From: Terriglobia bacterium
GTDB lineage: Bacteria > Acidobacteriota > Terriglobia > Terriglobales > Acidobacteriaceae
Assembly: GCA_020073565.1 (NCBI GenBank)
Contig: JAIQEY010000025.1
Coordinates: 23,347-87,346, forward strand
Direction of reading: 5' to 3'
Length of the DNA stretch: 64,000 nt
Shown here: positions 13,660 to 29,529 of the stretch, piece after piece
Layout: each line of letters opens with the position of its first letter
Position numbering within the stretch: position 1 is the stretch's first letter
Notes under the pieces: model-generated
What the model saw: only the letters and a program-made list of their open reading frames with translations
What the model was told of the DNA's origin: nothing
Database searches by the model: none
Position numbers and translations under genes: made by a program

Positions 13660-14424
13660 ATGACAAGTGAAACAGTAGATTCCTTGGGAGCCAAGCCTGT
13701 GTATAGGGCAGTCAAGACGTCACGGCTTTATGAGTTGATTGTGCAGCAGGTTGAGGAGTCAATCCTGAAGGGGCAGCTCAAGCCGGGCGATCAACTACCG
13801 GCGGAGCGCGACCTGGCCCAGCGATTCGGAGTCAGCCGAACTGCGGTTCGAGAGGCTGTGAAAGCCCTGCGCGAGAAGGGTCTGGTGGAAGCGTATTCCG
13901 GGCGCGGAACATTCGTGACCGATGGGACCTCGCACGCCATCCGGCACTCGCTCGACCTGCTGATCCGCATCAACCAACAGGAAGGTTGGACTCACTTGGC
14001 GGAGTTGCGCTACATCCTGGAGCCGGAGATCGCGGCCCTGGCTGCTCCACGGATTGAGGAACAACTGCTCAGCACTATGCGGGAGGCGGTCGCCGCCATG
14101 GAGCGCAGCCTGCACGATCCGGAGGCATACGTTGAGGCGGATCTCGATTTTCACCTGGCTTTGGCAGAAGCTGCCGGGAATCCCCTGGTTCTATCCCTGC
14201 TTGACTCCATCGTAGGACTCCTGCGCGAGCAGCGCAGTCGTATTTTTAACGTGGAGGGCGGACCGGAGCGTGGGCAATTTCACCACAAGCGGATCCTGGC
14301 CGCGGTGGAAGGCCGGAATGCCGAGGCTGCGCGAGAGACCATGCGCGATCATCTGCAGCAGGTTCTGGCGGACTCAGATGTTGCCGTGAAGGACAATTCT
14401 CAGTCGAAGCTGCCTCATAACTAA
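13660..14424 (+). CDS. GntR-family transcriptional regulator, FadR (FCD) subfamily
   Basis: A 254-residue DNA-binding regulator. The winged helix-turn-helix is at about residues 22-92, including LKPGDQLPAERDLAQRFGVS, RTAVREAVKALREKGLVE and the wing YSGRGTFVTD. The rest is an all-helical FCD ligand domain with LAELRYILEPEIAALAA, a DLDFHLALAEAAGNPLVLSL block and HHKRILAAVEGRNAEAARE; the Asp and His residues there are candidate metal or acid ligands. FCD regulators usually sense organic acids. Three cognate-looking palindromes lie between it and the divergent receptor. The next gene starts 12 bases after its stop, so it heads the catabolic operon. The ligand is probably the imported substrate or an oxoacid made from it. 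Confidence 0.92.
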   Translation: MTSETVDSLGAKPVYRAVKTSRLYELIVQQVEESILKGQLKPGDQLPAERDLAQRFGVSRTAVREAVKALREKGLVEAYSGRGTFVTDGTSHAIRHSLDLLIRINQQEGWTHLAELRYILEPEIAALAAPRIEEQLLSTMREAVAAMERSLHDPEAYVEADLDFHLALAEAAGNPLVLSLLDSIVGLLREQRSRIFNVEGGPERGQFHHKRILAAVEGRNAEAARETMRDHLQQVLADSDVAVKDNSQSKLPHN

Positions 14425-14436
14425 AGGGATTTTGGA

Positions 14437-15318
14437 ATGGCAAAGCTTGGATTCATCGGTCTCGGCGTGATGGGTGGCAACATGGTCGCCCGTTTGATCG
14501 AGAAGGGACACACGGTCACCGGATACAACCGCACTCGCTCCAAGGCCCAGTGGCTGATGGACCGCGGCATGCAGTTAGCAGACTCTCCTAAAGCTGTCGC
14601 GGCCGCGTCCGACGTGACCTTCACCATGGTCACCAACGCCGCAGCGCTCGCGGCGGTGACGGATGGTCCGGACGGATTGCTTGCGGGCATCACCGCTGGC
14701 AAACACCACATCGACATGAGCACAGTGAGCCCGGAAGTCAGCCGGGCTCTCGCTGCCAAGGTCCGGGAGAAGGGTGCCGACATGATCGACGCTCCGGTTT
14801 CCGGCAGCGTCATCACCTTGCAGCAAGGCAAACTCTCGGTGATGGTCGGCGGCCGCAAAGAAACCTTCGAGCGCTTGAAGCCTCTGCTTCTTGATATCGG
14901 CCCGAAAGTAACGCATGTGGGCGACAACGGCGTGGCACTGGCCATGAAGATCGCGGTCAACCTGCAGTTAGCAGTGCAGATGATGGCCTTCTCGGAAGGT
15001 GTTCTGCTGGCGGAGAAGAGCGGGATTCCACGCGAGGTTGCTGTGGACGTCATGGTGCACAGCGCCATCGCATCGCCCATGATTCAGTACCGCGGACCCT
15101 TCGTTCTACAACAGCCGGAAGAAGCCTGGTTCGACTGCAACATGATGCAGAAGGACATGCTGCTGGCCATGGAACTTGGCCGTAAGCTGAACGTTCCGGT
15201 TCCCACCACCGCGGTCAGCAACGAGTTTCTGACCGCCGCGCGCGGCATGGGGTGGGAGAAGCTGGACTTCGCGGTCATGTTTGATGTGCTGGCGCGCATG
15301 TCAGGAGTTCCCAAATGA
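14437..15318 (+). CDS. NAD(P)-dependent beta-hydroxyacid dehydrogenase (3-hydroxyisobutyrate dehydrogenase family)
   Basis: A 293-residue oxidoreductase. The N-terminal Rossmann motif is GFIGLGVMGGNMVARLIEKGH, followed by YNRTRSKA, where an Arg in the loop suggests NADP binding. The substrate region IDAPVSGSVITLQQGKLSVM corresponds to the DAPVSGG motif. The catalytic lysine lies in GVALAMKIAVNL, where family members usually have KxxNN. Relatives oxidise 3-hydroxyisobutyrate or reduce tartronate semialdehyde, succinate semialdehyde or glyoxylate. The ATG follows AAGGGATTTTGGA. The stop overlaps the start of E1alpha by four bases (ATGA), so it is co-translated with an oxoacid dehydrogenase. The substrate is not settled by sequence alone. 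Confidence 0.88.
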   Translation: MAKLGFIGLGVMGGNMVARLIEKGHTVTGYNRTRSKAQWLMDRGMQLADSPKAVAAASDVTFTMVTNAAALAAVTDGPDGLLAGITAGKHHIDMSTVSPEVSRALAAKVREKGADMIDAPVSGSVITLQQGKLSVMVGGRKETFERLKPLLLDIGPKVTHVGDNGVALAMKIAVNLQLAVQMMAFSEGVLLAEKSGIPREVAVDVMVHSAIASPMIQYRGPFVLQQPEEAWFDCNMMQKDMLLAMELGRKLNVPVPTTAVSNEFLTAARGMGWEKLDFAVMFDVLARMSGVPK

Positions 15319-16307
15319 CGACCGCCGCGCAGGCGCGAGGAGTCTCAGAAAAGCTCGACCTGTGGTTGCGGATGTACCGGCAGATGGTCAGCATCCGCCA
15401 GTTTGAAGCGCAGGTCAACGATCTCTACACCCGGGCCCTGATGCCGGGTCTCGCACATCTTTACATCGGTGAAGAGGCGGTCGCGGTGGGCGTTTGCGAA
15501 GCGCTGCAACGGACCGACTACATCACCAGTACCCATCGCGGCCATGGACATTGTTTGGCGAAAGGCGCTTCCCCCGATCGAATGTTCGCCGAACTGCTGG
15601 GCAAAGAGGCCGGGTACTGCAAGGGCAAGGGAGGTTCCATGCACATTGCAGACCCGGCGACCGGCAATCTGGGAGCGAACGCGATCGTATGTGGCAGTGC
15701 CGGCATCGCGACCGGAGCGGCGTTTTCCGCGAAGCGGCTGGGTACGGGCCAGGTAGCGGCCTGCTTCTTCGGAGAAGGCGCTCTCGGGCAGGGTGTTCTG
15801 TACGAAGTGATGAACCTTGCTCAGCTTTTCAAGTTGCCCGTGATCTACGTCTGCGAGAACAATCTTTACACCGAATACACTCACTATGCCGAAACCACCG
15901 CGGGAGACATCCTGGCGCGAGCGATCGCATTCGATCTGGAGGCCGTAGCCGTGGACGGGCAAAATGTGCGCGCCGTGTACGAGTTTGCGGAGCGACTGGT
16001 AGACCGCGCGCGGCGCGGCGGCGGGCCCGCATTTCTGCTCTGCAATACCTATCGCTATCACGGCCACCACGTCGGGGATATCAATCGCGAGTACTATCGT
16101 TCGAAGCAGGAGGAGCACATCTGGAAGACCGAGCGGGATCCGATCACCAATTTCGGAAAATGGTTGATCGACCAGAAACTCGCCGACCAGGCTTCACTCG
16201 ATGGCATGCAGCGCGAGACCGAGGCGGAGATGCAGAAAGCCGTCGAATTCGCCATCGCGGCACCGTATCCGGCCGCCGACAAAGTGGAGCAAGACGTCTA
16301 TGCCTGA
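15315..16307 (+). CDS. Thiamine-dependent 2-oxoacid dehydrogenase E1 component, alpha subunit
   Basis: This subunit supplies the ThDP-binding half of the E1 decarboxylase of a pyruvate, acetoin or branched-chain oxoacid dehydrogenase complex. The ThDP motif begins GEGALGQGVLYEVMNLAQ and ends at the Asn pair in IYVCENN. The upstream block LAHLYIGEEAVAVGVCEAL and the HRGHGHCLAKG region are typical. The phosphorylation-loop area is THYAETT. At 330 residues it matches the AcoA/PdhA type. It overlaps its neighbours at both ends (4 bases with the dehydrogenase, 8 with E1beta). It is cytoplasmic. Which oxoacid is used cannot be told from these motifs; the surrounding genes argue for a dedicated catabolic complex rather than the housekeeping one. 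Confidence 0.93.
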   Translation: MTTAAQARGVSEKLDLWLRMYRQMVSIRQFEAQVNDLYTRALMPGLAHLYIGEEAVAVGVCEALQRTDYITSTHRGHGHCLAKGASPDRMFAELLGKEAGYCKGKGGSMHIADPATGNLGANAIVCGSAGIATGAAFSAKRLGTGQVAACFFGEGALGQGVLYEVMNLAQLFKLPVIYVCENNLYTEYTHYAETTAGDILARAIAFDLEAVAVDGQNVRAVYEFAERLVDRARRGGGPAFLLCNTYRYHGHHVGDINREYYRSKQEEHIWKTERDPITNFGKWLIDQKLADQASLDGMQRETEAEMQKAVEFAIAAPYPAADKVEQDVYA

Positions 16308-17298
16308 AATGGGCGGCCGCGAACTGACCTTTGCGCAGGCAATCCGCGAGGCCTTGGCCGAAGAGATGCGCCGCGACCACACGGTGTGCATCTTGGGCGA
16401 AGATGTCGCGGAAGCCGGCACTCCCTTCAAAGTTCTCTCCGGTCTGCTCGAGGAGTTCGGCAAAGACCGCGTGCTCGATACCCCAATCTCCGAAGCTGGT
16501 TTTACGGGACTGGCCGTCGGAGCTGCCATGACCGGAATGCGCCCGGTCGTGGACATCATGTTTGGCGATTTCATCACCTTGACCATGGACCAGATGGTGA
16601 ACCAGGCTGCCAAAGTTCACTACATGTCGGGCGGAAAGTGGAAAGTGCCGATGGTCATGCGCACGACGCTGGGGGCGACGCGGCGCTCTGCGGCTCAGCA
16701 TTCGCAGTCGCTGCACGCGTGGTTCTGCCATGTGCCCGGGCTGAAGGTCGTACTTCCGTCTACGCCTTACGACGCGAAGGGCCTGTTGAAATCTGCCATT
16801 CGCGACGAGAATCCGGTCGTCTTCTTCGAAGACAAGATGATGTACAAATTGAAAGGCTCTGTGCCGGCAGAAGACTACACGGTCCCGTTGGGCGTGGCCG
16901 ATGTCAAACGAGTAGGCGAAGACATTTCGATCATCGCCACGAGCAGCATGGTGCAGGTTGCGCTGGGTGCTGCCACATTGCTCGAGGAGATCGGCATCAG
17001 TGCGGAAGTGGTGGATCCTCGCACCATGTGGCCGCTCGATGAGAAGACGCTGATCGAATCGGCCAGGAAGACATCGCGGGTGATCGTGCTCGATGAGGGC
17101 TACGAGCGCTACGGCGTCACAGCGGAACTTGCGTCGGTGATTGCTACCGGCGCATTCTACGACTTGGACGCGCCGGTGAAGCGCATGGGCGCGATGCATG
17201 TTCCGATTCCGTTCTCGCCGCCCCTGGAAGATCTGACCGTGCCGACGGCGGAGAGCGTGTTTAAGGCCGCGCGGGCACTGTGTGGAGGTCAGAGGTAA
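16300..17298 (+). CDS. Thiamine-dependent 2-oxoacid dehydrogenase E1 component, beta subunit
   Basis: A 332-residue transketolase-like subunit. The true start is the ATG at 16300 (MPEMGGRELTFAQAIREAL), inside the end of E1alpha; the ORF-track extension upstream is translation of E1alpha in another frame. Family features are GEDVAEAGTPFKVLSGLLEEF with the catalytic glutamate region, DTPISEAGFTGLAVGAAMTG, FGDFITLTMDQMVNQAAK, and the C-terminal domain DPRTMWPLDEKTLIESARK. It forms the alpha2beta2 E1 with the preceding product. No sign of damage. Confidence 0.93.
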   Translation: MPEMGGRELTFAQAIREALAEEMRRDHTVCILGEDVAEAGTPFKVLSGLLEEFGKDRVLDTPISEAGFTGLAVGAAMTGMRPVVDIMFGDFITLTMDQMVNQAAKVHYMSGGKWKVPMVMRTTLGATRRSAAQHSQSLHAWFCHVPGLKVVLPSTPYDAKGLLKSAIRDENPVVFFEDKMMYKLKGSVPAEDYTVPLGVADVKRVGEDISIIATSSMVQVALGAATLLEEIGISAEVVDPRTMWPLDEKTLIESARKTSRVIVLDEGYERYGVTAELASVIATGAFYDLDAPVKRMGAMHVPIPFSPPLEDLTVPTAESVFKAARALCGGQR

Positions 17299-17385
17299 GA
17301 GGTCAGATTGCAGAAGTAAGAACATCCATTCCACATGGGTTTCACCTCTGCAATCTCACCTCTGTCCTCTGACCTGTTCTTGAAG
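17285..17385. repeat. Long imperfect inverted repeat between E1beta and M24 genes
   Basis: The left arm AGGTCAGAGGTAAGAGGTC(AGATTGCAGAAG) starts inside the last codons of E1beta. It is mirrored by CTCTGCAATCTCACCTCTGTCCTCTGACCT about 30 bases later. The arms pair over roughly 30 bases with interruptions, giving a strong hairpin inside the operon. Confidence 0.75.
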
Positions 17386-17410
17386 CGCGGCTGCAGCAAA
17401 GGAGAAAATT

Positions 17411-18757
17411 ATGGCTCTTCCAACTTACGGAACGATGGCGGTCGATTGGGAAGATCGGGTAGATTTCGACCGATTGCGCCGCGAGCGGCTAGCGAAGGCC
17501 AAGGCTCTGCTAGCCAAGTCCGAGATGGGCTCCCTGCTGTGCTTTGACATGAACAATGTGCGCTACCTCACGGCCACGCACATTGGCACCTGGGCCCAGG
17601 ACAAAGCCAATCGCTTCACACTTCTCCCCCAGAACGACGAACCGATTCTGTGGGACTTCGGATCGGCCGCAAAGCATCACCAGTTGCATTGTCCGTGGCT
17701 GGGCGAGCGCTCGCGTCCGGGCATCTCCATGCTTCGCGGCGCCATGACGCCGGAGATGGGGCGCGCCGAAGACGTCGCCAAGAAAATCCGTATCGAACTC
17801 GAAATGCGTGGCCTGCATAAGGAACCGGTGGGCATCGACATCGTCGAACTGCCGGTCCTGTTCGCGCTTCAGAAGGAAGGGATCAAGGTCGTCGATGGTC
17901 AGGCGCTGATGTCCGAAGCGCGGCTGATCAAAACGCGCGACGAGATCACGCTGCTGAACACCTCGGCCATGATGGTCGACGCCGCTTATGACGAACTCTA
18001 CCGCGCCATGAAGCCGGGCATGAGTGAAAACCAAGCCGTGGGCCTGGTCAGCAAGGTGCTCTACGATCTCGGCTCTGAGTACGTGGAAGCCGTGAATGCA
18101 ATTTCCGGGGAGCGCTGCAATCCGCATCCACACGTGTTTTCCGATCGGGTACTGCGTCCGGGTGATCCGGTGTATTACGACATTCTGCATTCCTACATGG
18201 GATACCGGACCTGCTACTACCGCTGCTTTACGATTGGCTACGCTTCGCACGCCATGAACGACGCTTACAAGCGGTGCCGGGAGTACCTGGATGCGGCTAT
18301 CGAACTGGTTCGTCCGGGACGCACGACGGCCGAGATCGCGGCGGTGTGGCCGAAAGCGCAAGAATTCGGATTCCCGAGCGAGGAAGCATGCTTTGCTCTG
18401 CAGTACGGGCACGGCATCGGCTTGGCCATCTGGGAGAAACCGGTCATCAGCCGTCTGGTGTCGTTCGAGCATCCTACCGAAATCAAACCCGGCATGGTGT
18501 TTGCGCTCGAAACGTTCTGGCCCTCGACCGACGGCTGGAGCGCGGCGCGCATTGAAGAGGAAATCGTCGTTACCGAAAAGGGTCATGAGGTGATCACCCG
18601 CTTCCCGGCCGAGGAACTGCTGGTTGCTGGAAGACACTACTTCACGGTGGACGGCCCGCTGCCTGCGCTGCGGGAAAGCGAACCCGAGCCCAGCACGCGG
18701 GTGCGCGAGATGATCGAAGCGAGTTCCAGACAAGAACGAGTTGGGGTTGGCGACTAA
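17411..18757 (+). CDS. M24-fold (Xaa-Pro aminopeptidase/creatinase-like) hydrolase with a substituted metal ligand
   Basis: A 448-residue two-domain protein with a creatinase-type N-terminal domain (GSLLCFDMNNVRYLT) and a C-terminal pita-bread fold. Expected M24 ligands can be placed: Asp257 (YYDI), His334 (YGHGIGLAI), Glu367 (ALETF) and Glu382 (ARIEEEI). The second Asp of the usual D-x10-D pair falls on Cys268 (GYRTCYYR). M24 proteins include peptidases but also creatinase, ectoine hydrolase and the DMSP lyase DddP. The altered ligand and the position between E1 and E2 genes argue for a catabolic enzyme rather than a peptidase. A good Shine-Dalgarno (AAAGGAG) precedes the ATG. The exact reaction is unknown. 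Confidence 0.8.
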   Translation: MALPTYGTMAVDWEDRVDFDRLRRERLAKAKALLAKSEMGSLLCFDMNNVRYLTATHIGTWAQDKANRFTLLPQNDEPILWDFGSAAKHHQLHCPWLGERSRPGISMLRGAMTPEMGRAEDVAKKIRIELEMRGLHKEPVGIDIVELPVLFALQKEGIKVVDGQALMSEARLIKTRDEITLLNTSAMMVDAAYDELYRAMKPGMSENQAVGLVSKVLYDLGSEYVEAVNAISGERCNPHPHVFSDRVLRPGDPVYYDILHSYMGYRTCYYRCFTIGYASHAMNDAYKRCREYLDAAIELVRPGRTTAEIAAVWPKAQEFGFPSEEACFALQYGHGIGLAIWEKPVISRLVSFEHPTEIKPGMVFALETFWPSTDGWSAARIEEEIVVTEKGHEVITRFPAEELLVAGRHYFTVDGPLPALRESEPEPSTRVREMIEASSRQERVGVGD

Positions 18758-18789
18758 GAACCGGTTTCAAGAATACCTTTGAGAGTCAA

Positions 18790-18865
18790 GGAGAGACCCT
18801 CAGGGGCTGAAGCCCGCATTTTTGGCGGCTCTTGGCGGCACGGCTGAAGCCGTGCCCTTCCCAGA
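18790..18865. repeat. Palindromic intergenic repeat (GGCACGGCTGAAGCCGTGCC type)
   Basis: Two nested palindromes, GGGCTGAAGCCC and GGCACGGCTGAAGCCGTGCC, lie between the M24 and E2 genes. The same CTGAAGC core recurs in repeats elsewhere in the window. It may act as a transcript-stabilising hairpin or be a REP-like mobile unit. Confidence 0.75.
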
Positions 18866-18924
18866 ACCGATTTGTGAAACCAGTTCTAGGCGACTGCGTC
18901 CCCTCCGATACGCAAAATTAACTT

Positions 18925-20112
18925 ATGGCGATTAGTGTGGTGATGCCCGCGCTCGAAATGGCTCAGGAAACTGGCAAGCTGATTTCCTGGCTAAAAAAGG
19001 AAGGGGACCCTGTCGCCAAAGGCGAACCGCTGCTCGAAGTGGAAACTGATAAGGCCGTCATGGAAGTCGAGGCCCCCGGCGACGGCGTTCTGGCCGGCGT
19101 CAAAGTCCAGGCCGGAGCGGAGGTTCCCGTGGGACGAACCATAGCCTGGATCGTGAGTCCCGGCGAGACTCCGCCAACTGAAGAAGCTCAGGTTGAGTCG
19201 GGCAGAAAGACTGCCGCAGGCGCGGCTCCCTCTTCGTCTGCAGTCCCTGTTGCAGGCGCGGCAGCCCAGTCGACGGCGCGCGAGATCAAGATCTCGCCCA
19301 AGGCGCGCCGTCTCGCTTCCGAACGCGGCGTCAATCTCGCCGATGTGCGCGGGTCCGGCCCGGGCGGAGACATTCTCGCGTCCGACATCACGGCAGCAGC
19401 CGAGTCGAGGTCCAGTGCGGCGGCCGCAGCCGTTGACACCGGCAGCCCCATTGCCCGGCTGATGGCCGAACGGACCACACAGAGTTGGACCACCGTCCCG
19501 CATTTCTTCGTGGTGCGTGACGTGGATGCTGGGGCGCTGAACGAAGCGCGCCAGAAACTCGCGGCCGAGATCGAAGAAACGCACGGTGTGAAACTTACCC
19601 ACACAGATCTGCTGGTTGCGCTCGTTGCTCGCGTGCTCGTCAAACATCCGCGAATGAACGCCAGCTGGGCGGGCGAGGGCGTCCGCGTAAATTCTGACGT
19701 CAACATGGGCCTCGCGATGGCGGTGGACGAAGGAGTGGTCGCTCCGGTCATCCACAAAGCCGACCAAGCCGAACTGGGTGCGATCGCAGTGCAACGCCGC
19801 GACCTTGCGGAGCGAGCGCGCAGCGGGAAGTTGCGCCCGGCCGACATCGCGGGCGGCACGTTCACCATCAGCAACCTCGGGATGTTCGGGGTCGACGCAT
19901 TCAGCGCGATCATCACCCCGCCCCAGGCAGCCGTTCTTGCTGTCGGACGGATTGCGGACCGCGTGGTGCCGGTGGACGGGGCCCCAAGTATCCGCCCGAT
20001 GATGACCTTGACACTCTCGAGCGATCATCGCGTCGTGGACGGCGCCCGCGCGGCGGAATTTCTTCGGGATGTTGCGGAGGCGATCGGCCACCCGCAGCAG
20101 TGGCTCGGCTGA
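18925..20112 (+). CDS. Dihydrolipoamide acyltransferase (E2) of a 2-oxoacid dehydrogenase complex
   Basis: A 395-residue E2 core protein. A single lipoyl domain carries the modified lysine in VETDKAVMEVEAPGDG (about residue 43). After an Ala/Ser/Pro-rich linker comes the E1/E3-binding domain (ISPKARRLASERGVNLADV, GSGPGGDILASDI). A second linker leads to the acyltransferase domain with TVPHFFVVRDVD, GTFTISNLGMFGVDAF and the active site LSSDHRVVDG (His about residue 368). It completes the E1alpha/E1beta set encoded upstream. No dihydrolipoamide dehydrogenase (E3) gene is present in the window, so E3 must be shared with another complex. It ends 20 bases from the stop of the convergent molybdopterin gene. 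Confidence 0.93.
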   Translation: MAISVVMPALEMAQETGKLISWLKKEGDPVAKGEPLLEVETDKAVMEVEAPGDGVLAGVKVQAGAEVPVGRTIAWIVSPGETPPTEEAQVESGRKTAAGAAPSSSAVPVAGAAAQSTAREIKISPKARRLASERGVNLADVRGSGPGGDILASDITAAAESRSSAAAAAVDTGSPIARLMAERTTQSWTTVPHFFVVRDVDAGALNEARQKLAAEIEETHGVKLTHTDLLVALVARVLVKHPRMNASWAGEGVRVNSDVNMGLAMAVDEGVVAPVIHKADQAELGAIAVQRRDLAERARSGKLRPADIAGGTFTISNLGMFGVDAFSAIITPPQAAVLAVGRIADRVVPVDGAPSIRPMMTLTLSSDHRVVDGARAAEFLRDVAEAIGHPQQWLG

Positions 20113-20131: not shown

Positions 20132-22410
20132 CTACTTCAGGCTTCGTAAAATCCGCTGGGGTGTGAATGGAGCCTCTCGCAACCGAACTCCCACCGCGTC
20201 GAACAAGGCATTCGCGATGGCAGCCGGCACGGGTCCGATTGCGGGTTCGCCGGCGCCCAGCGCCGGCAGTTCCGGACGGTTGATTAGCACAATGTCGACT
20301 TCAGGAATCTCCTGGAATGTGAGAACTGGATAACTGCCCCAGTCGAGGCTCCTGATGCCCGAGCTATCAAACTGCACTTCTTCCAGCAATGCCCGGCTTA
20401 TTCCCTGGATAATGTTGCCCTCGATTTGATTCTTCAAGCCGTCCGGATTCACAACCAGCCCGCAATCATGCGCGACCGTGATCCGGTTCACGGAAATTCT
20501 CCCGTTCGTCTTGTCGACATCGATTTCCGCAATGACGGCAACCATAGTATTGGCGCGGTCCGCCACCGCCACACCCCGTCCGGAGGCCTTCGACCCCTTC
20601 GTAGCGGGCGCTGGCGATGGGCGCGCTTGCCATCCCGCGCGCTGTGCCGCTGCACGCAGAACCTCCGTTAGCCTCTTGTTTTCGCCCAGGTAGCGCAAGC
20701 GGAATTCGATTGGATCGACTCCCAGTTGCGAGGCGATGTCATCGAGGAAGGTTTCGCTGGCAAACGTGCGGGCCAAATTCCCGGGCGCCCGCAGATTGCT
20801 CGTCCGCAGCGGCGTAGGATCCGGCTGAACCCAAGGGATCAGGGCGGCGACCACCTTTTGATTGTCAAACGCGTAGACCTGCCCGCCGCCCTCAATCCCA
20901 TTTTGAAAGCCTTCGCTGGTTCCTTTCAATCCAACCTGGCGCGAGGCTAACATGGGATTGCCCATCGCTTCGGTCCACGGAAAGCTTCGATCCTCGAAAC
21001 TCCATGCCGTCACTTTGCCTTGGCCATCGACGGCGGCACGCACCGTCATGACCTGCGCCGGTCCTTTCGGCTCCCATCCATGCTCGTCTTCGCGCATCCA
21101 TTGAACCCGCACGGGCTTCCCCACCGCGCGTGATAGCAAGGCCGCATCCTCAGCCGCGTCGTCGGATTCGAGCCGTCCATAGCTTCCCGAACCCTCTCGA
21201 TAAACCACCTGCACACTCCTCTCCGGCAGACCCAAAAGATCGGCGATTCTCTTCCGCGTGTAGAAAGGTCCCTGGGAGCCGGCCCAAATCGTGGCCTTGT
21301 CCGGACGCACATCGGCCACCGCACACGAAGGCCCGAGCATGCCGTGCAGTTGGAACGGCCAACGATACGTTGCCTGGAATGTCTTCGCCGCCGTGGCAAT
21401 CGCCGATTCTGGATTACCACGGTCGACAGCGGTGCGATCTCTGTAGCTCTTCGTTTTCTTCAGGTAGTCGTACACTTCGTCGGCGTTGGCCGGCAACTTG
21501 GTAGTCGGAGCGCTCCAAGTCACCTTCAAGGCTCTGGCTGCCTGAATCGCAGCCCATTCTGTTTCGGCTACCACCCCGACGAAACCTCCCTCCTGAACCA
21601 CTTTTCTCACGCCGGAAATGCCGCGAATCGAACTCTCGTCAACGCTCTGAGCTTTGGAATTCACAACGGGCGGGCGGACCACTCGGCCGTGCAGCATTCC
21701 GGGGACTCGAACATCCTGCGTAAAGGCGAATTCGCCGGTGAACTTCCCGGGCAGATCCACTCGAAGAACTGATGTACCGACAATCCTGTATCTCTTCGGA
21801 TCCTTCGCCGGCACTTCCGGTGCCACCTTCATATCCCAGCCCGTGCCAGTCGCCGTGATCTTCACGTTGAAGTGTCTGCCCCCGATCAGATCCGCGTAGG
21901 AAGTCGTTTGGCCAGGTTGCTCAGCAACCTTTATCACGCCATTTTCAACCAACAACTTTTCGACAGGCGAACCGAGTTTTGCCGACGCGAGTTTCAGAAG
22001 TTCCTGTCGCGCCGCCGCCGCGGCCTGACGCAGCTGCGGCCCTCCCCGCTCCAAAGTCCTGCTGGCAGCGGTCACCGATTGGTCGATGGTCTTTGCCGTG
22101 TCTCCCGAATCCATCTTCACGCGGGTAAATGGAACATCCAGTTCCTCCGCCACGATCTGGGCGAGTGCGGTTTCGACTCCCGTACCCAGCTCCACTTTGC
22201 TCGTAAAGACAGTAACCGTTCCGTCACGAGCGACTTCCAGCCAGGAATCAAGCAAGGTTGCTTCCGGCGCAGCGGCAATGCCTTCTGCATTCGCCATCCA
22301 AGTCTTTGCTGGCGCAAGAAAGTGGAAGTACACGATCAGCGCTCCCGACTGCTTCAGGAATCGCCTGTAGAGGAGGAGTCGATTGGCGTGCTAGGAGCTT
22401 TTGCGTTCAT
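20132..22410 (-). CDS. Molybdopterin-binding subunit of an IorB-like aldehyde/isoquinoline oxidoreductase (N-terminal frameshift)
   Basis: This is the large subunit of a xanthine-oxidase-family hydroxylase. The intact part (20132..22333) carries SKVELGTGVETALAQIVAEE, GPFYTRKRIADLLGL, NLRAPGNLARTFASE, AHDCGLVVNPDGLKNQIEGN and the C-terminal catalytic block ALGAGEPAIGPVPAAIANAL with the active-site glutamate. The natural start is probably the ATG at 22410, which overlaps the Fe-S gene stop (ATGA). It encodes MNAKAPSTPIDSSS, and then the frame breaks near 22370. One added base would continue into YRRFLKQSGALIVYFHFLAP, a twin-arginine export signal. The protein would thus be periplasmic like other IorB-type enzymes. 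The break is either a sequencing error or a real mutation. Confidence 0.85.
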
Positions 22411-22870
22411 GGCATCTCCTTCGCTGCCCGCTGAATTGCGCGGACAACTCGCAGATGACTGCCGCATCGGCAAAGCACATCATCCAACGCCTGCTTGATC
22501 TCCGACTCAGAAGGATGGGGGTTCGCGTCGAGCAGGACTTTAGCCGTCATAACGATGCCATTCATGCAGAACCCGCACTGCGCCGCTTGCTCTTCAAGAA
22601 AGCCTTCTGCAACGGGTGCGGATGAGCAACGCTGCCAAGGCCTTCCAGGGTGGTGATGCTCCGATCTCGTGCTGCCGAAACCGGCAGATTGCAGGACCGC
22701 ACTGCCTCCCCTTCCATAATCACCGTGCACGCGCCGCACTGGGAAAGGCCGCAACCGAATCGTGGCCCGTTCAGTTCCAAGTCGTTGCGCAGCACATAGA
22801 GAAGAGGAACATCAGGATCGGTATCGACGATCCGTGGCTGGCCGTTGACCTTCAGCGCGATCTTTGCCAT
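22407..22870 (-). CDS. 2Fe-2S subunit of the IorAB-like oxidoreductase, interrupted by a -1 frameshift
   Basis: The protein starts MAKIALKVNGQPRIVDTDPD and contains the plant-type ferredoxin cluster (RFGCGLSQCGACTVIMEGEA). At HPLQKAFL (about base 22595) the frame is lost. The next minus-strand frame continues exactly as expected with EEQAAQCGFCMNGIV and DDVLCRCGSHLRVVRAIQ, which holds the second 2Fe-2S cluster. Adding one base (TTGAAGAG to TTGGAAGAG) restores a normal protein of about 154 residues. It would shuttle electrons from the Mo subunit to a cytochrome, and the gene just upstream encodes one. As written, the gene cannot give a functional subunit. Confidence 0.88.
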
Positions 22871-22969
22871 GAGCTAACTCCTCAGGTGTGAGCAGCAACA
22901 CGGGTGTCTGCAAAGGGTTTTGATTCCTCTGCCCCTAGTTTGGAGACCCAGTCGAGCAGCCGCACCGCT

Positions 22970-23398
22970 TTAGTTCAACAGCGGAATGCTCTTTGCCGGC
23001 GGGGGCTGCGGGATCGATTTCAGAAAAGCGTAAATTTCCTCCAGTTCGGCGTCTGAAAGCACCTTGCTCGTGTACGGCGGCATCTGTCCCCTGGGCTGCC
23101 GGGTATATTCTGTGAATCCGCCGAGCGAAATCGGGGGAGGCCCGAGCCGCGGTCCCGAAAATCGGGATCCTTGTCCTTCGCGCCCGTGGCACTCATAGCA
23201 TCCGGAACTGGTGTACAGCTGCTTTCCCTTTTCGACGTTTCCCCGGGCGCTTTCCGGGGTTGCATTCCTCGCAGGCGCCTGTGCCCCGACTGGCACGCAG
23301 AGCACCAGGAACACGATGGCCGCCGCACTGAGCAATGCAAGCCTGACCGCCGCCGGCAGATTCACTCTGAAAGGATCGCTGCTATCTTGGTTCTTCAC
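22970..23398 (-). CDS. Periplasmic c-type monohaem cytochrome
   Basis: A 142-residue protein with an N-terminal hydrophobic export or anchor segment (LALLSAAAIVFLVLCVPVGAQA) and one haem-binding motif (SGCYECHG). The probable axial methionine is in RGQMPPYTSKVLSDAELEEIYAFL, a typical class I cytochrome C-terminus. The start is GTG after TAGGAGAACGAC. It lies between the exported ThDP enzyme and the Fe-S/Mo subunits in one minus-strand run. In IorAB-type periplasmic dehydrogenases a cytochrome accepts electrons from the Fe-S subunit, so this is the likely electron acceptor leading to the respiratory chain. Confidence 0.9.
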   Translation of the reverse strand: MKNQDSSDPFRVNLPAAVRLALLSAAAIVFLVLCVPVGAQAPARNATPESARGNVEKGKQLYTSSGCYECHGREGQGSRFSGPRLGPPPISLGGFTEYTRQPRGQMPPYTSKVLSDAELEEIYAFLKSIPQPPPAKSIPLLN

Positions 23399-23430
23399 GT
23401 CGTTCTCCTAAAAACACCCGGCCGCGTTCT

Positions 23431-25374
23431 CTAGCGCGGCTGCGTGACCACGTCGACCAGCGCCGGTTCTCCCTGTTCGACAACCGCGATGGCCCGTTGA
23501 ATCGCCGGCCCTAAGTCCTTCGGATCCGTAATCGGACCCTCGCCGTGCACGCCCATACTCTGCGCCAACTTGGCGTAGTCAATCTCGGGCCCGGTGATGG
23601 TAGTGCCGATGGTGGCGCGATCAATGCCGCGGTTGTGGCGATCCGCCATGCGCTGCACGTGCATCAACTCCTGATGCCATCCCCGGTTGTTGTGCATGAC
23701 GCTCAGCAGCGGAATCTTGTGATGAGCCGATGTCCACAGGATACCGGGCGCATACATTAAATCACCATCGCACTGAATCGTAACCGTGAGCCGGCCATGT
23801 TCCTTATTCGCGAGCGCCGCACCGAGCGATGCAGGGGCACAGTAGCCGATCCCGTGACCGCCCGCGCCTCCGATCGACTGATGATGTTTGTCAAACGACC
23901 ACAACCGCATCGGCCAGTTGCTCACCCACGGAATGGTTTCCGACGCCAGCGTCCAGTCTTTGTCCTTGATCTGCGCCCACAACTCCGCCGACAACCGCGC
24001 CGTGCTGATCGGCCTCGCATCCCATCCATAGGTTGCTTCCGTCCGTGCCTGATCGAGCGCCTTCTGCCGGGCCGCGGCGAACCCCTTTCCGCGTTCCTCG
24101 TAGACTCGCTTGCGATCGTCCGTGAGCAACCGCTTGACCTCCTCAATCAACGACGGTAGCGTGGCCTCCCCATCGGCCGCCATCGCAAGGTCGACCTCCG
24201 TATAGCGCTGGAAGTCCTGGTAGTTGCTCTTCAGATACAAGTCCGTGGCAGTTATGCTGATCAGTTTCACGCCCGGACTCGTCATCAGTTGTGAAGTCCG
24301 ATGTAATTGCTCCCGGAAGGAATTGATCGTGCCCCAAAAGTCCGTGAGCTCCAGACCTAAAATCACATCGGCATTCCCGATGAGTCCCATTACCCGTTCC
24401 GACTGGTTCAGCGGGTGTCGCGAGGGAAAATTCATACGCGCTCCCTGATCAATCACCGGTGCTTGCAGCGTTTCCGAGAGTTCGACCAGGAGCGCAACGC
24501 CTGCCGGCGTGCGCGCCATGCGATCCGCGATGATGAGCGGATTTTCCGCCGCCACCAGCAGTCGCGCCGCTTCTTTGACCGAGCCCGAATCTCCCTGCGG
24601 AGGAGTTGGCACAGTAAGCTTCGGAACGCGCAGCCTGGTCCGGTCTTCGATTTCTCGTTCCTGCAGTTCGCTGTCGACCACCAGCAGCACCGGTTCAAAC
24701 GGAGGCGTCACGGCAAGCTTGTAGGCGCGCACTGCGGATTCCGCATAATGAGGGAGCGAGACCGGCATGTCGTCCCACTTCACGAAGTCTCGAACCAGAG
24801 CTGCCGCGTCCTGCACGCTGTGGTCCCACTCTGGACCGGGACGACGGAAAGTCGCGTCCAGCATATTTCCCATGGTCATGTAGATCGGCACCCGGTCGCA
24901 GAAAGCGTTGTAGATCGCCATCGACGCATGTTGCAGTCCGACGGTTCCGTGCAGGAAAACTCCCATCGGCTTGCCTTCGATCTTCGAGTAGCCATGCGCC
25001 ATGCCAACTGCCGATTCTTCGTGACAGCAAGTGATGAACTCCGGGTTCTTGTTCCCTCCGTAATTGATGACCGATTCATGCAAGCCGCGGTAGCTTGATC
25101 CCGGATTCGCAGCGATGTATTCGATGCCCAGGGACTTGATGACATCGACCATGAAGTCAGCCCCGGGGCGATCCGTAGTCAGGACCTCTGCCGTAGCCGG
25201 GTTGCCGGTCTCCGCTTCTTTCGACATGGGTGGAGGACCGCTCTTTGCTTGCGACTTGGAAGTTTGCGCGGCCACCGGCGCCGCGCTCGTAGCCAGCACT
25301 GCCACCCCGGCAGCGGAGCCCTTGAGGAAAACCCGACGGTTGACGGAATCCTTCTTCGACTTCGCCAATTGCAT
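23431..25374 (-). CDS. Tat-exported thiamine diphosphate-dependent decarboxylase/synthase-like enzyme
   Basis: A 647-residue member of the acetolactate synthase / benzoylformate decarboxylase superfamily. I chose the ATG at 25374, preceded by GAGGGGGTA. It gives an N-terminus with a clear twin-arginine signal, VNRRVFLKGSAAGVAVLAT, ending AAPVAAQ. The PYR domain has the catalytic Glu region CHEESAVGMAHGYSKIEG, and the central domain is present. The PP domain has the Mg/ThDP motif CDGDLMYAPG...HNNRGWHQE, with the first Gly of the usual GDG replaced by Cys. Folded, cofactor-loaded export of a ThDP enzyme is unusual. As first gene of an operon with cytochrome c and a Mo-hydroxylase, it may decarboxylate a 2-oxoacid to an aldehyde in the periplasm. 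The substrate is unknown. Confidence 0.85.
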   Translation of the reverse strand: MQLAKSKKDSVNRRVFLKGSAAGVAVLATSAAPVAAQTSKSQAKSGPPPMSKEAETGNPATAEVLTTDRPGADFMVDVIKSLGIEYIAANPGSSYRGLHESVINYGGNKNPEFITCCHEESAVGMAHGYSKIEGKPMGVFLHGTVGLQHASMAIYNAFCDRVPIYMTMGNMLDATFRRPGPEWDHSVQDAAALVRDFVKWDDMPVSLPHYAESAVRAYKLAVTPPFEPVLLVVDSELQEREIEDRTRLRVPKLTVPTPPQGDSGSVKEAARLLVAAENPLIIADRMARTPAGVALLVELSETLQAPVIDQGARMNFPSRHPLNQSERVMGLIGNADVILGLELTDFWGTINSFREQLHRTSQLMTSPGVKLISITATDLYLKSNYQDFQRYTEVDLAMAADGEATLPSLIEEVKRLLTDDRKRVYEERGKGFAAARQKALDQARTEATYGWDARPISTARLSAELWAQIKDKDWTLASETIPWVSNWPMRLWSFDKHHQSIGGAGGHGIGYCAPASLGAALANKEHGRLTVTIQCDGDLMYAPGILWTSAHHKIPLLSVMHNNRGWHQELMHVQRMADRHNRGIDRATIGTTITGPEIDYAKLAQSMGVHGEGPITDPKDLGPAIQRAIAVVEQGEPALVDVVTQPR

Positions 25375-25796
25375 TACCCCCTCAAATCGTGGCGACAATT
25401 TTCTTGCGCTCCGAAATCAGTTGCGATCTCTCATCGGCGTAAAGGCGCTAGCAGCGGGGCATTTCCCGAAGAATTGGAAGGTGCGGAGAATTCCCCGCCG
25501 CTGGACGTATCTGCCAGCCGCGCAGGGCTGACTGCTCCGCTGGCTTCAACCCTGTCCGTGTTGCATGCTGATTTGGGGAAAGCGCACAAGCCAGGTGGCG
25601 ATATTCGCACAGGTGTACGGATCTAGCAAGATATGAGATTTCGCTTGACGATCAAGGGCTCAACAGAGTAGTTTCACGCCCTAATTAGTGATCATCGCTC
25701 AGTAGAGCAGCTCCCCTGTGATCCCCTGCGCCGTTGTGGTGCAAAGCGATTTGCCCCAGGGTACTGCACAAAGGATAGGGGCGAGCCAGGGAGCCT
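25375..25796. other. Divergent intergenic region upstream of the ThDP enzyme operon and the 25797 gene
   Basis: About 420 bases without a convincing gene; the short ORFs here have no recognisable sequence. It must hold the promoters for the minus-strand ThDP/cytochrome/IorAB operon and the plus-strand decarboxylase-like gene. A possible plus-strand -35 (TTGACG, near 25644) lacks a good -10. No TGGT-N3-ACCA operator was found, so the GntR protein may not act here directly. Confidence 0.5.
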
Positions 25797-26789
25797 ATGG
25801 GCAAACTAAGACTGTCATTGGCGTGTTGGAACTACGATCGCGTCCGGGGATTGCTGGAAGGCCGTATCCCCGTCGATGGAATTGACCTGACGTTCCTTAA
25901 CCTGCCGGTGGAAGAGACCTTCTTTCGCATGTTGCGGCATCACGAGTTCGATGCCGCCGAAATGTCACTGTCGTCCTACGTTCTCTCCCTCTTCTCGGAG
26001 AATCCACCGTTCATTGCGATTCCCGTCTTCCCTTCGCGCTTTTTCCGGCACTCCTGCATTTACATCAACCGCAACAGCGGGATCCGCGAGCCCAAAGACC
26101 TGATCGGGAAGCGCGTGGGCACTCCCGAGTACCAGATGACAGCCGGTGTGTGGATCCGGGGCATCCTCAACGACGAGTACAGCGTTCCCGTCAGCAGCGT
26201 GAAGTACTTCAACGGAGGAGAAGAAGAACCCGGCCGTCACGAGAAGCTCAAACTTTCCCTGCCGCCGGAATTTCATCTCGAGCCCATCCCCGAGACCAAG
26301 ACCCTGTCCGCCATGTTGGATGCGGGCGAAATTGACGCTCTCTACACCGCGCGCATGCCCTCCACGTTCACCCGTGGATCGGGAACGGTGAAGCGGTTGT
26401 TCGACGACTACCAAGCGGTCGAGCGCGAATACTATCTCCGCAGCAAGATTTTTCCGATCATGCATACGCTCGTGATCCGCCGTGAAGTCTACGACAAATA
26501 TCCTTGGATCGCTCAGTCCCTCTACAAAGCATTCGTCTATGCGCAGCGCGAGGTTTATCAGGACCTCTATCAGACCGCCGCGCTCAAATACATGTTGCCG
26601 TGGCTTATTCGGCACGTGGAGGACACGCGTGCGCTCATGGGCCAGGACTTCTGGCCCTACGGGTTCGAGCCCAATCTCCTGACGCTGAGCACATTTCTTC
26701 GCTACTCCCACGAGCAGGGACTCGCCAAACGTCTGCTCAAGCCTACGGATCTGTTTGCTGCCGAGTCGCTGGAGTCATTCAAAATCTAG
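25797..26789 (+). CDS. 4,5-dihydroxyphthalate decarboxylase-like / substrate-binding-fold protein
   Basis: A 330-residue protein without a signal peptide. It resembles the Pht5 (4,5-dihydroxyphthalate decarboxylase) family, which has a periplasmic-binding-protein fold. It opens KLRLSLACWNYDRVRGLLEG, then VDGIDLTFLNLPVEETFFRM, DAAEMSLSSYVLS, a PVFPSRFFRHSCIYIN block, DLIGKRVGTPEYQMTAGVW and the C-terminal PYGFEPNLLTLSTFLRYSHEQ. Databases often label such proteins ABC substrate-binding proteins, but no signal peptide or ABC genes are seen here. The ATG follows GGGAGCCT. A permease gene begins shortly after. The family is clear; whether it acts on a phthalate is a guess. Confidence 0.75.
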   Translation: MGKLRLSLACWNYDRVRGLLEGRIPVDGIDLTFLNLPVEETFFRMLRHHEFDAAEMSLSSYVLSLFSENPPFIAIPVFPSRFFRHSCIYINRNSGIREPKDLIGKRVGTPEYQMTAGVWIRGILNDEYSVPVSSVKYFNGGEEEPGRHEKLKLSLPPEFHLEPIPETKTLSAMLDAGEIDALYTARMPSTFTRGSGTVKRLFDDYQAVEREYYLRSKIFPIMHTLVIRREVYDKYPWIAQSLYKAFVYAQREVYQDLYQTAALKYMLPWLIRHVEDTRALMGQDFWPYGFEPNLLTLSTFLRYSHEQGLAKRLLKPTDLFAAESLESFKI

Positions 26790-26828
26790 AAGAGCATCCG
26801 CTCAATGCTGAAGTGGAAAGGAATTTTC

Positions 26829-28367
26829 ATGTCGGCGGAAAACGCAGGTCGCTGGTGGACGCTGGGAAGAGGCGACATCGACGCTACCGTTGCCCAGGTT
26901 GGCTTCAACCTTGCGCAGATGATTATTCCGGTCTTCCTGCTCGCTCCAATCGGCATCCCGCTGGCCTTCAGCATCGACCACCTCGTCCCCGGCTACGCGC
27001 TGGGATTTCTGCTCGGCTCGCTCGGATTGACCTTCCTGGCAGTGCGTTTGAGACGCCGCGAGGGCCGGGCAGACGTAACTGCTCATGTCTACGGAAACAA
27101 CGTTCCCGCGATCATCGCCTACGCCCTATCCATCGTGCTCCCCGTCTACCTGCAAACGAATGATGCGGTCGCAGCGTGGCAGACCGGGGCCGCGGCGGTC
27201 GTATGGACCGGAATCATCAAGCTGGCTGCCGCGCCCTTTGCCAGCATGTTTCGGCGCTTCATCCCGATCCCGGCCTCCATGACAGTTTTTGGCGCCGCCA
27301 TGTACAGCTACCTGGCACTCGTGCTGCTGCAGCGTTTATTCGATCAACCCCTAATCGGGATTGTGGCGCTCTCGATCGTTGCCGTGAGTGTCCTCGGGAA
27401 CGTTCCTATCACGCGCTTGCGCATACCGCCTTTCATTGTTGCGTGGACGGTCCCCTTGTTCGTCGGCTGGCTGATCGGCTACGTGCACCCAGTGTGGCAG
27501 GGCGCATCCGTACGGCTGCCTTTCGTAGCTGCACTGGGCCCATTACGAAGTTTGGCGCTCGCCGTGCCCTATTTATCCGTCATTGCGCCGATCGCGATCT
27601 ATCAGATCCTGCAGGATATTGCTGCGGTGGAAGGCGCGTCCGCTGCCGCGGACAACTATGATGCGCGCAGTGTCGTGGCCTGTGACGCATTGGCGACGCT
27701 CCTCTGCGGCGCTGCTGGAAGCGTAGTGACTCCCGTGGTGTACGCGCTGCATCCGCCTTACAAGGCGATGGGAGCGCGGATCGGCTTTGCACTTTGGACA
27801 CCGATCATTCTGCTGTTGGTCGTTGCCAGCGGCCTGACGCTTTTCATCGCACAGCTGTTTCCGTGGCCGATCCTGGCCGCGATGATTGCCTACGTGTCGG
27901 TCGGTGTTGGCATGGCCACCCTGCGGCGCGTGGATCGCAAGTACCTCAGCGCCGTGCTGCTGGGCTTCGTTCTACCCGCCGGTGCCGTCGTCGCCGCGGC
28001 CGTTAATTCCGCCTTGCCTGCTCTGAAACTCTCCGCCGCGAATCCTGATGTTCAAAGTGTCTTAAACCGCTCGATCTACTGGTCGTCCGTCCAGGGGCTG
28101 GGCAGTGGGTTTCTTTTCCTCGTGCTGGTCGTGACCGCGCTGATCACGGAAGTGATCGACCGCAATTTTGCAAGAGCCAGCTGGTGGTGTCTGGCCGCAG
28201 CGGTGTTCTCCTGGTTGGGGCTGATGCATTCTCCCATCTTCCGCTGGGGAGCCCAGCCAATCTATGCTGAGGGCTGGATCGCGGCTGCCGTCATCGTCTA
28301 CTCCGCACGCTGGTGGAGAGGCGACCTGCCCGACACGAAGGCAACCGAGCCGGCTCGAGTTGCCTAG
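26829..28367 (+). CDS. Multi-pass membrane transporter, NCS2 (xanthine/uracil permease)-like
   Basis: A highly hydrophobic protein of about 512 residues with at least 12 predicted membrane spans. Features suggesting the nucleobase/ascorbate (NCS2/AzgA-like) fold are the early amphipathic FNLAQMIIPVFLLAPIGIPL, the loop VYGNNVPAIIAYALS, the central AIYQILQDIAAVEGASAAAD followed by ARSVVACDALATLLCGAAGS, and paired helices after it. The similarity is only at the level of layout and a few motifs. I chose the ATG at 26829 (AAAGGAATTTTC before it); 26805 is also possible. It probably moves the substrate or product of the neighbouring decarboxylase-like enzyme, since they form a plus-strand pair. Substrate unknown. 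Confidence 0.6.
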   Translation: MSAENAGRWWTLGRGDIDATVAQVGFNLAQMIIPVFLLAPIGIPLAFSIDHLVPGYALGFLLGSLGLTFLAVRLRRREGRADVTAHVYGNNVPAIIAYALSIVLPVYLQTNDAVAAWQTGAAAVVWTGIIKLAAAPFASMFRRFIPIPASMTVFGAAMYSYLALVLLQRLFDQPLIGIVALSIVAVSVLGNVPITRLRIPPFIVAWTVPLFVGWLIGYVHPVWQGASVRLPFVAALGPLRSLALAVPYLSVIAPIAIYQILQDIAAVEGASAAADNYDARSVVACDALATLLCGAAGSVVTPVVYALHPPYKAMGARIGFALWTPIILLLVVASGLTLFIAQLFPWPILAAMIAYVSVGVGMATLRRVDRKYLSAVLLGFVLPAGAVVAAAVNSALPALKLSAANPDVQSVLNRSIYWSSVQGLGSGFLFLVLVVTALITEVIDRNFARASWWCLAAAVFSWLGLMHSPIFRWGAQPIYAEGWIAAAVIVYSARWWRGDLPDTKATEPARVA

Positions 28368-28419
28368 AGAGGTGGAGTTTCATTCTCGGAGCGTAAGTCT
28401 TCATTCGGAGCGCAAACCG

Positions 28420-29529
28420 ATGCAATTTCCAGTTCACAAGAGATGGCCTTTGCACGAATTCTCATCCGATCGCACACGGAAGAAGCTGAACAGACGTGAT
28501 CGCGGCGTTGCGGTGTTCCGGAGTATTTGGCTCGTTCTGGGTAAGGTCGTCATGGCCGCCCTGGTAAGCGCACAAACGAGTCCGGCAACTCAGAAGTCGC
28601 AGCCGCTCGTGCTGACCGGCGCGATCCCGCTCGCAGGCGTACAAGGACGCATTGATCATTTGGGTGTTGATACGAAAGGCCACCTCTTTATTTCTGCCCT
28701 CGGCAACAATACCGAGGAAGTCCTTGACCTCACAGCTGGAAGAGCGATGCGCAGCCTCAACGTGCCCCGGCCGCAAGGCGTCGTGTACGCTCCGGCATCG
28801 AACGAACTGTTTGTCGGAAGCGACGAAGGCAAGCTGTATATATACAGCGGGGACTCGCTGGAGCTCATCACTTCGATCGATTTTGGCGACGACGTCGACA
28901 ACCTTCGCTATGATGCCATTCACAAGCAGGTCTACGTCGGCTATGGCGACGAGGAAGCAGGCGCTATCGCGGTCGTCGATGCGATCACCAACAAGCGTCT
29001 GGATGCGGACTACAAGCTGGGCGCCCATCCCGAGTCGTTCCAATTGGAGGTGTCCGGGCCAAATATCTACGTCAATTTGCCAGACCTGAAACAGATCGCC
29101 GTCATCAATCGCAGTACGCGCAAGATCACGCGATGGCCCCTGGCTCTTGAAAGCAACTTCCCCATGGCCCTGAATGAGACCGACTACCGGCTCTTCGTCA
29201 TCACGCACGCGCCGCCTCGTCTGGTTGTATTCGACACGAGCACCGGGGAACAGCTGGCTGTGCTTCCCTGCGTTCAGAACTCAGACGATATCTTCTACGA
29301 TTCCGCACGCAAGCGCATCTACATTCCCGGTGGGGAAGGATCCATCGACGTCTTCCAACAGCAAGATGCGAGCCACTACAACCACATCGCGAGCGTCCCT
29401 TCCGCAGTCGGCGCACGGACGGGTGGATATTTTGGGAAGGGTAAAAAGGGTTTCGAAGTTCTCTATGTAGCGGTTCCGGCTCGTGCCGATCACGGAGCCG
29501 AGGTATTGATCTATACCGTCCAGGACTGA
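28420..29529 (+). CDS. Exported YncE-like beta-propeller protein
   Basis: A protein of about 369 residues. The ATG at 28420 (GGAG ten bases upstream) clears the end of the permease gene; the longer ORF upstream is not supported. A weak hydrophobic segment (IWLVLGKVVMAALVSAQ) near residue 45 may be a signal or anchor. The rest is a run of blades of about 40-45 residues: RIDHLGVDTKGHLFISALGN, PQGVVYAPASNELFVGSDEG, DVDNLRYDAIHKQVYVGYGD, LPDLKQIAVINRSTRKI and others. This is as in YVTN/YncE and quinoprotein-like propellers. No catalytic residues are evident. Its job near the permease is unclear. Confidence 0.75.
   Translation: MQFPVHKRWPLHEFSSDRTRKKLNRRDRGVAVFRSIWLVLGKVVMAALVSAQTSPATQKSQPLVLTGAIPLAGVQGRIDHLGVDTKGHLFISALGNNTEEVLDLTAGRAMRSLNVPRPQGVVYAPASNELFVGSDEGKLYIYSGDSLELITSIDFGDDVDNLRYDAIHKQVYVGYGDEEAGAIAVVDAITNKRLDADYKLGAHPESFQLEVSGPNIYVNLPDLKQIAVINRSTRKITRWPLALESNFPMALNETDYRLFVITHAPPRLVVFDTSTGEQLAVLPCVQNSDDIFYDSARKRIYIPGGEGSIDVFQQQDASHYNHIASVPSAVGARTGGYFGKGKKGFEVLYVAVPARADHGAEVLIYTVQD

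Follow-up and report, generated by a model that had tools for sequence, protein, structure and literature searches.

What would a thiamine diphosphate (ThDP)-dependent enzyme do outside the inner membrane in the company of a c-type cytochrome? This question is raised by a 64,000-nucleotide stretch of DNA from a Terriglobia bacterium (assembly GCA_020073565.1, contig JAIQEY010000025.1, positions 23,347 to 87,346), hereafter the window, whose minus strand carries, in order, genes for a ThDP enzyme, a cytochrome c, a 2Fe-2S subunit and a molybdenum (Mo) subunit. To our knowledge, ThDP decarboxylases are regarded as cytoplasmic, and a first-pass annotation had read these four genes, the first with a twin-arginine translocation (Tat) signal, as a single periplasmic unit oxidising 2-oxo acids to acids. 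The genes and the signal are present as described; of the proposed unit, the link between ThDP enzyme and cytochrome proved to be conserved across phyla, while the Mo enzyme did not hold up as a general part of it. Our preferred reading, to which we assign a probability of roughly 0.5, is that a periplasmic benzoylformate decarboxylase (BFDC)-like enzyme would act on an aromatic 2-oxo acid and, with its own cytochrome c, form a two-gene respiratory unit. No precedent for an exported ThDP enzyme or a ThDP-cytochrome operon was found in the open full-text literature, subscription papers lying outside this coverage.

The N-terminus of the ThDP protein, MQLAKSKKDSVNRRVFLKGSAAGVAVLATSAAPVAAQ, reads as a standard twin-arginine signal with an RRxFLK motif, a hydrophobic stretch and an AxA-like cleavage region. 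R21, R22 and F24 are invariant in 68 of 68 full-length homologues and the lysine of the motif is kept in 47 of the 68, in agreement with the annotated signal, which by these features appears to be genuine and from which we infer export of the enzyme. Since the Tat pathway exports folded, cofactor-loaded proteins, catalysis by the enzyme beyond the inner membrane would be possible. Translation is taken to begin at position 25374, where an ATG is preceded by a G-rich Shine-Dalgarno sequence; the mechanically called open reading frame (ORF) begins at a TTG at 25398.

All three thiamine pyrophosphate (TPP)-enzyme domains of Pfam were recovered, at E-values of 9e-20, 2e-17 and 3e-9, and PF02775, PF02776 and PF00205 all score above their gathering cut-offs. 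The best NCBIfam match, PRK08327 (NF006203), reached 245 bits against a curated cut-off of 456, and the benzoylformate decarboxylase equivalog PRK07092 reached 146 bits against 493, so that the protein is a superfamily member of the pyruvate oxidase (POX)/BFDC type that matches no equivalog. Alignment to BFDC places E127 at the position of Glu47 (kept in 67 of 68 homologues), H150 at that of His70 (68 of 68) and S101 at that of Ser26 (serine in the window and in 60 of 68), and the metal- and ThDP-binding motif DGD...NN (D544-G545, N570-N571) occurs in all 68; the active site is intact and of the BFDC type. For a further active-site histidine of BFDC, His281 in the middle domain, the sequence alignment is ambiguous. 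The AlphaFold2 model of the enzyme has a predicted local distance difference test (pLDDT) score of 85, the signal region being of low confidence, and its closest folds are 2-hydroxyacyl-CoA lyase, benzaldehyde lyase and 4-hydroxybenzoylformate decarboxylase. Lyases and decarboxylases, which are not known to use flavin adenine dinucleotide (FAD), predominate among the top fold matches, although glyoxylate carboligase and acetolactate synthase match too.

A contig scan returned 256 relatives of the ThDP enzyme, from which the best 80 loci were kept as pattern-scan matches rather than as a random sample; the pairing was assessed across 105 distinct homologous loci. Tat status was scored by in-frame scanning of N-termini, and three loci (L058, L096 and L100) were left out of the Tat-less set because their 5' ends are truncated or masked. 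A profile search with duplicates removed placed a cytochrome gene no more than 900 bp downstream in 87 of 94 Tat-bearing enzymes, as against 0 of the five Tat-less homologues whose N-terminus was read (L026 and plasmids of Sinorhizobium, Phyllobacterium, Salipiger and Thalassospira), a split with a chance of about 1e-5 by our own arithmetic from the counts, in which the five Tat-less cases represent one clade. The cytochrome gene comes immediately after the ThDP gene, the gap usually lying between -25 and +20 bp. Under a stricter criterion, such a cytochrome follows 49 of 79 ThDP genes, whereas among the 588 other genes at these loci that are 150 codons or longer only 1 is so followed. Co-inheritance is evident from the distance matrices of the two proteins (r of 0.56; permutation maximum of 0.20). 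Tat-bearing and Tat-less enzymes part in the tree at 99% support in the Shimodaira-Hasegawa-like approximate likelihood ratio test (SH-aLRT) and the seven cytochrome-less Tat-bearing enzymes are scattered within it; this fits a single old origin of the exported pair, followed by sporadic losses or relocations. No third conserved partner emerged when about 5000 ORFs from 81 loci were clustered or when the Pfam domains of 82 operon neighbours were tallied, and no ThDP-cytochrome fusion was seen, the long open frames inspected being N-terminal overreads. The conserved unit, across phyla, is the ThDP enzyme and the cytochrome c.

Several side observations concern this unit. L080:5615-10303 carries two ThDP genes in tandem with a cytochrome gene after each of them, a duplication of the pair as a unit. 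Four related loci (L055, L059, L060 and L064) have an XdhC-type Mo-enzyme maturation gene at 2.5-4 kb upstream of the pair, in flanks where no Mo enzyme was seen. Two Tat-less homologues, on plasmids of Salipiger abyssi (L111) and Phyllobacterium zundukense (L110), adjoin tripartite tricarboxylate transporters, and the Salipiger homologue has, besides, a pair of aldehyde dehydrogenases and an alpha-hydroxy acid oxidase for neighbours. Such an arrangement is mandelate-like and hints at 2-oxo acid decarboxylation.

The window cytochrome comprises 142 residues with a single CxxCH (CYECH) and a methionine-containing MPPY segment, and its best PDB matches are the cytochrome c subunits of bc1 and cbb3 complexes.

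The Mo and 2Fe-2S genes behave otherwise. Alignment to the closest relative of the window, the Terriglobia isolate SRVP_18 (L027; 93% identity in the ThDP enzyme), located the frameshift that had been annotated before the Tat-like RRFLKQSGAL of the Mo gene, a one-base deletion near 22368, and revealed a further one near 22597 which splits the 2Fe-2S gene into two frames and which the first-pass annotation does not mention. Both genes are intact in L027. Apart from its deletion the Mo gene reads through 733 codons without interruption, and its ratio of nonsynonymous to synonymous substitution rates (dN/dS) versus L027 is 0.093, indicating purifying selection; the breaks are therefore either recent or due to sequencing or assembly errors. 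By sequence, the solved structure most similar to both subunits is the aldehyde dehydrogenase 8gy3 (E-values of 1e-61 and 2.6e-38 for the large and small subunit, respectively), in keeping with the aldehyde-oxidising role first suggested. Conserved four-gene synteny, the check named beforehand, had to be rejected, as these genes adjoin the ThDP-cytochrome unit only in the window and in L027, where three other genes separate them from the cytochrome gene. Elsewhere they occur near the unit at L098, a betaproteobacterial locus (42-52% identity), while L058 and L106 gave no more than weak matches. Mo genes are found at 3-4 of 81 ThDP-cytochrome loci, with about one expected by chance when the roughly six such genes of the 6.1 Mb window genome are applied to 1.07 Mb of loci. 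The Mo enzyme is a lineage-specific local accessory, and given its near-absence elsewhere the pathway cannot generally depend on a Mo enzyme encoded beside it.

How, then, might the two-gene unit function? The BFDC-like enzyme would fold with ThDP and Mg2+ in the cytoplasm, leave through the Tat pathway and cleave a 2-oxo acid in the periplasm, in the window lineage most likely an aromatic arylglyoxylate related to phthalate or protocatechuate metabolism; the co-transcribed cytochrome c would take electrons from the oxidation of the remaining fragment to a carboxylic acid and hand them to the terminal oxidase chain, while the acid would be imported and degraded via protocatechuate. Electrons could pass directly from the enamine or acyl-ThDP intermediate to haem, the 2-oxo acid leaving as the next lower acid, or could travel by way of an aldehyde dehydrogenase distinct from the ThDP enzyme, a part that the linked Mo enzyme would play in the window and L027. 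We favour the direct route, since the constant partner is the cytochrome and linkage to an aldehyde dehydrogenase is not general. ThDP enamines are oxidised by one-electron acceptors such as ferricyanide. A flavin-free, Tat-exported ThDP oxidoreductase which couples the oxidative decarboxylation or cleavage of a 2-oxo acid to the transfer of two electrons, one at a time, to a dedicated cytochrome c is a tentative proposal, to which we give somewhat less than even odds.

In the clade of the window the ThDP-cytochrome pair lies within protocatechuate (pca) gene clusters, and this gene context suggests the aromatic substrate. The product of the divergent gene upstream of the ThDP gene matches 4,5-dihydroxyphthalate decarboxylase (PDB 9jp7) over residues 1-329 with an E-value of 2.3e-86, and its homologue is kept beside the ThDP-cytochrome unit in L027, L028 and L029. 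The order in L027 is PcaR/PcaU-type regulator, ThDP enzyme, cytochrome, PcaB, PcaDC, metallo-hydrolase, 2Fe-2S and Mo subunit, with PcaR, PcaB and PcaDC all scoring above curated cut-offs; in L029 it is PcaR, permease-like protein, beta-propeller protein, ThDP enzyme, cytochrome, PcaH, PcaG and metallo-hydrolase, and in L028 ThDP enzyme, cytochrome, 4,5-dihydroxyphthalate decarboxylase homologue and permease. The pcaB-pcaDC-metallo-hydrolase block that stands between the cytochrome and 2Fe-2S genes (L027:10579-13887) marks a recent rearrangement between congeners. Its simple deletion from the window genome was ruled out, since a pcaH-pcaB-pcaDC cluster was found there on contig C31 (L127, G000:C31), and the block is therefore either an insertion in L027 or a relocation in the window genome. 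Outside this clade, aromatic-acid symporters of the major facilitator superfamily (MFS) with PcaD-like genes occur in L039, L054 and L073, MhpA-like hydroxylases in L101 and L105, and a Rieske dioxygenase/PdxA cluster at a Caballeronia plasmid locus.

Certain of our observations weigh against the reading preferred here. Outside the clade of the window most loci are without a recognisable aromatic gene, about 10 of 82 having one, and the aromatic substrate class is consequently a reasoned guess that applies to the lineage of the window only; within the family, paralogues may differ in their substrate, or it may be non-aromatic. Seven Tat-bearing enzymes are without an adjacent cytochrome gene. 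Since all five Tat-less homologues belong to a single clade, the correlation between Tat signal and cytochrome rests on few independent events, and shared ancestry alone accounts for part of the mirror-tree correlation (r of 0.56). Those characterised families that come closest are, moreover, non-oxidative and cytoplasmic, and the proposal draws on sequence and model evidence.

Of the other explanations, a relay in which the ThDP enzyme makes a periplasmic aldehyde non-oxidatively and a Tat-exported Mo/2Fe-2S enzyme oxidises it, with the cytochrome c as acceptor of the latter, would agree with the downstream, same-strand position that the Mo and 2Fe-2S genes have both in the window and in L027, with the Tat motif of the Mo protein itself, with the likeness of the two subunits to the large and small subunits of 8gy3, and with the mandelate-like setting of the cytoplasmic Salipiger homologue, which has an aldehyde dehydrogenase gene on either side and an alpha-hydroxy acid oxidase close by. 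The Mo genes are nevertheless missing from almost every other ThDP-cytochrome locus, where the cytochrome is retained, and in L027 three genes intervene between the Mo genes and the cytochrome, which makes the relay rather unlikely in our estimation. We hold it to be improbable that the enzyme is instead a periplasmic carboligase or lyase, resembling benzaldehyde lyase or 2-hydroxyacyl lyase, with a cytochrome serving a periplasmic dehydrogenase encoded elsewhere: the nearest folds do include benzaldehyde lyase and 2-hydroxyacyl-CoA lyase, and a few loci carry pyrroloquinoline quinone (PQQ)-dehydrogenase genes in the same operon or nearby, but the pairing of cytochrome and ThDP genes is close to one-to-one, the gap is usually below 20 bp and no third enzyme is constant. 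That the window unit is a decaying pseudogene remnant might be argued from two frameshifts within about 230 bp and from the scarcity of homologues within the genus (3 of 24 genomes); the ThDP and cytochrome frames are, however, intact, with dN/dS values of 0.06 and 0.12, and the Mo gene (0.09) retains one open frame of 733 codons, leaving decay a very small chance.

Comparison with known systems places the proposed oxidoreductase beside several without making it one of them. Benzoylformate and 4-hydroxybenzoylformate decarboxylases (PDB 1bfd, 6qsi and 7orx) share its fold (template modelling (TM) score of about 0.83 by target length), the catalytic glutamate, the His70 and Ser26 equivalents and, in the clade of the window, the aromatic context, whereas the window enzyme has about 20% identity to benzoylformate decarboxylase, is longer, and has a Tat signal, a cytochrome c partner and a score of 146 against 493. 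PRK08327, a 'thiamine pyrophosphate-requiring protein' (NF006203), is the best-scoring known family, below its curated cut-off, and the nearest sequence relatives are the 33-40% identical Tat-less homologues of rhizobia and roseobacters, of which the five examined (L026, L109-L112) differ in having neither the signal nor an adjacent cytochrome. The membrane aldehyde dehydrogenase of acetic acid bacteria (8gy3) has homologous Mo and 2Fe-2S subunits, a cytochrome c gene nearby and a periplasmic location. The cytochrome c subunit of that enzyme is multihaem, in contrast to the short, monohaem window cytochrome, which belongs with the ThDP gene. Pyruvate oxidase and pyruvate:ferredoxin oxidoreductase are likewise ThDP enzymes that pass substrate electrons to a redox partner; they employ FAD and quinone or Fe-S clusters and are cytoplasmic, whereas the only redox partner constantly encoded here is a c-type haem protein.

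Table 1. Features of the ThDP-cytochrome locus and its neighbours in the window.
Feature	Position	Strand	Basis or remark
ThDP-dependent enzyme (benzoylformate-decarboxylase-like, predicted Tat-exported)	23431..25374	-	Pfam/NCBIfam, alignment, model, conservation
Twin-arginine signal MQLAKSKKDSVNRRVFLKGSAAGVAVLATSAAPVAAQ	25264..25374	-	Motif reading; RR and F invariant in 68 homologues
Conserved partner cytochrome of the ThDP enzyme (c-type, monohaem; hydrophobic signal at its N-terminus)	22970..23398	-	
2Fe-2S small subunit of Mo hydroxylase, one-base deletion near 22597	22407..22870	-	
Mo-binding large subunit, xanthine dehydrogenase/aldehyde oxidase type (IorB-like)	20132..22410	-	One-base deletion near 22368
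Divergent neighbour, 4,5-dihydroxyphthalate decarboxylase homologue	25797..26789	+	Match to PDB 9jp7
Multi-spanning permease-like protein	26805..28367	+	Kept with ThDP-cytochrome unit in L027 and L028

The permease-like protein (Table 1) gave no Pfam or NCBIfam match and is a candidate uptake protein. Next to it, at 28264-29529 on the plus strand, lies a gene for a YncE-like beta-propeller protein without a confident Pfam match, homologues of which adjoin the ThDP-cytochrome unit in L028 and L029. A cluster of the 2-oxo acid dehydrogenase type, its genes all running in one direction (13660-20112, plus strand), converges on the unit where the latter ends and encodes a GntR-like regulator, a 3-hydroxyisobutyrate/tartronate-semialdehyde-type reductase, E1 alpha, E1 beta, an M24-family protein (DddP-like, with a score below the cut-off) and E2.

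The ThDP-cytochrome unit is patchy and accessory, ThDP enzyme carriers amounting to 14 of 396 genomes sampled of the phylum and 4 of 250 sampled in the family, and the homologues in the genus (3 of 24 genomes) including one partial match at 50% identity. The exported clade also occurs in Alpha-, Beta- and Gammaproteobacteria, whose entries are placed among acidobacterial ones, and this intermingling suggests transfer between the two groups.

A widespread exported ThDP clade that has its own cytochrome would represent a new type of periplasmic dehydrogenase, in addition to those based on PQQ, Mo and flavin. It would provide a testable role for proteins whose present annotation goes no further than 'thiamine pyrophosphate-binding protein' or 'c-type cytochrome', and would offer soil acidobacteria a possible way to respire 2-oxo acids, aromatic or other, with no need to import them first. 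If direct transfer from ThDP to haem is true, the enzyme would be categorically new, a new kind of oxidoreductase, and the oxidation of 2-oxo acids would constitute a one-enzyme periplasmic entry to respiration.

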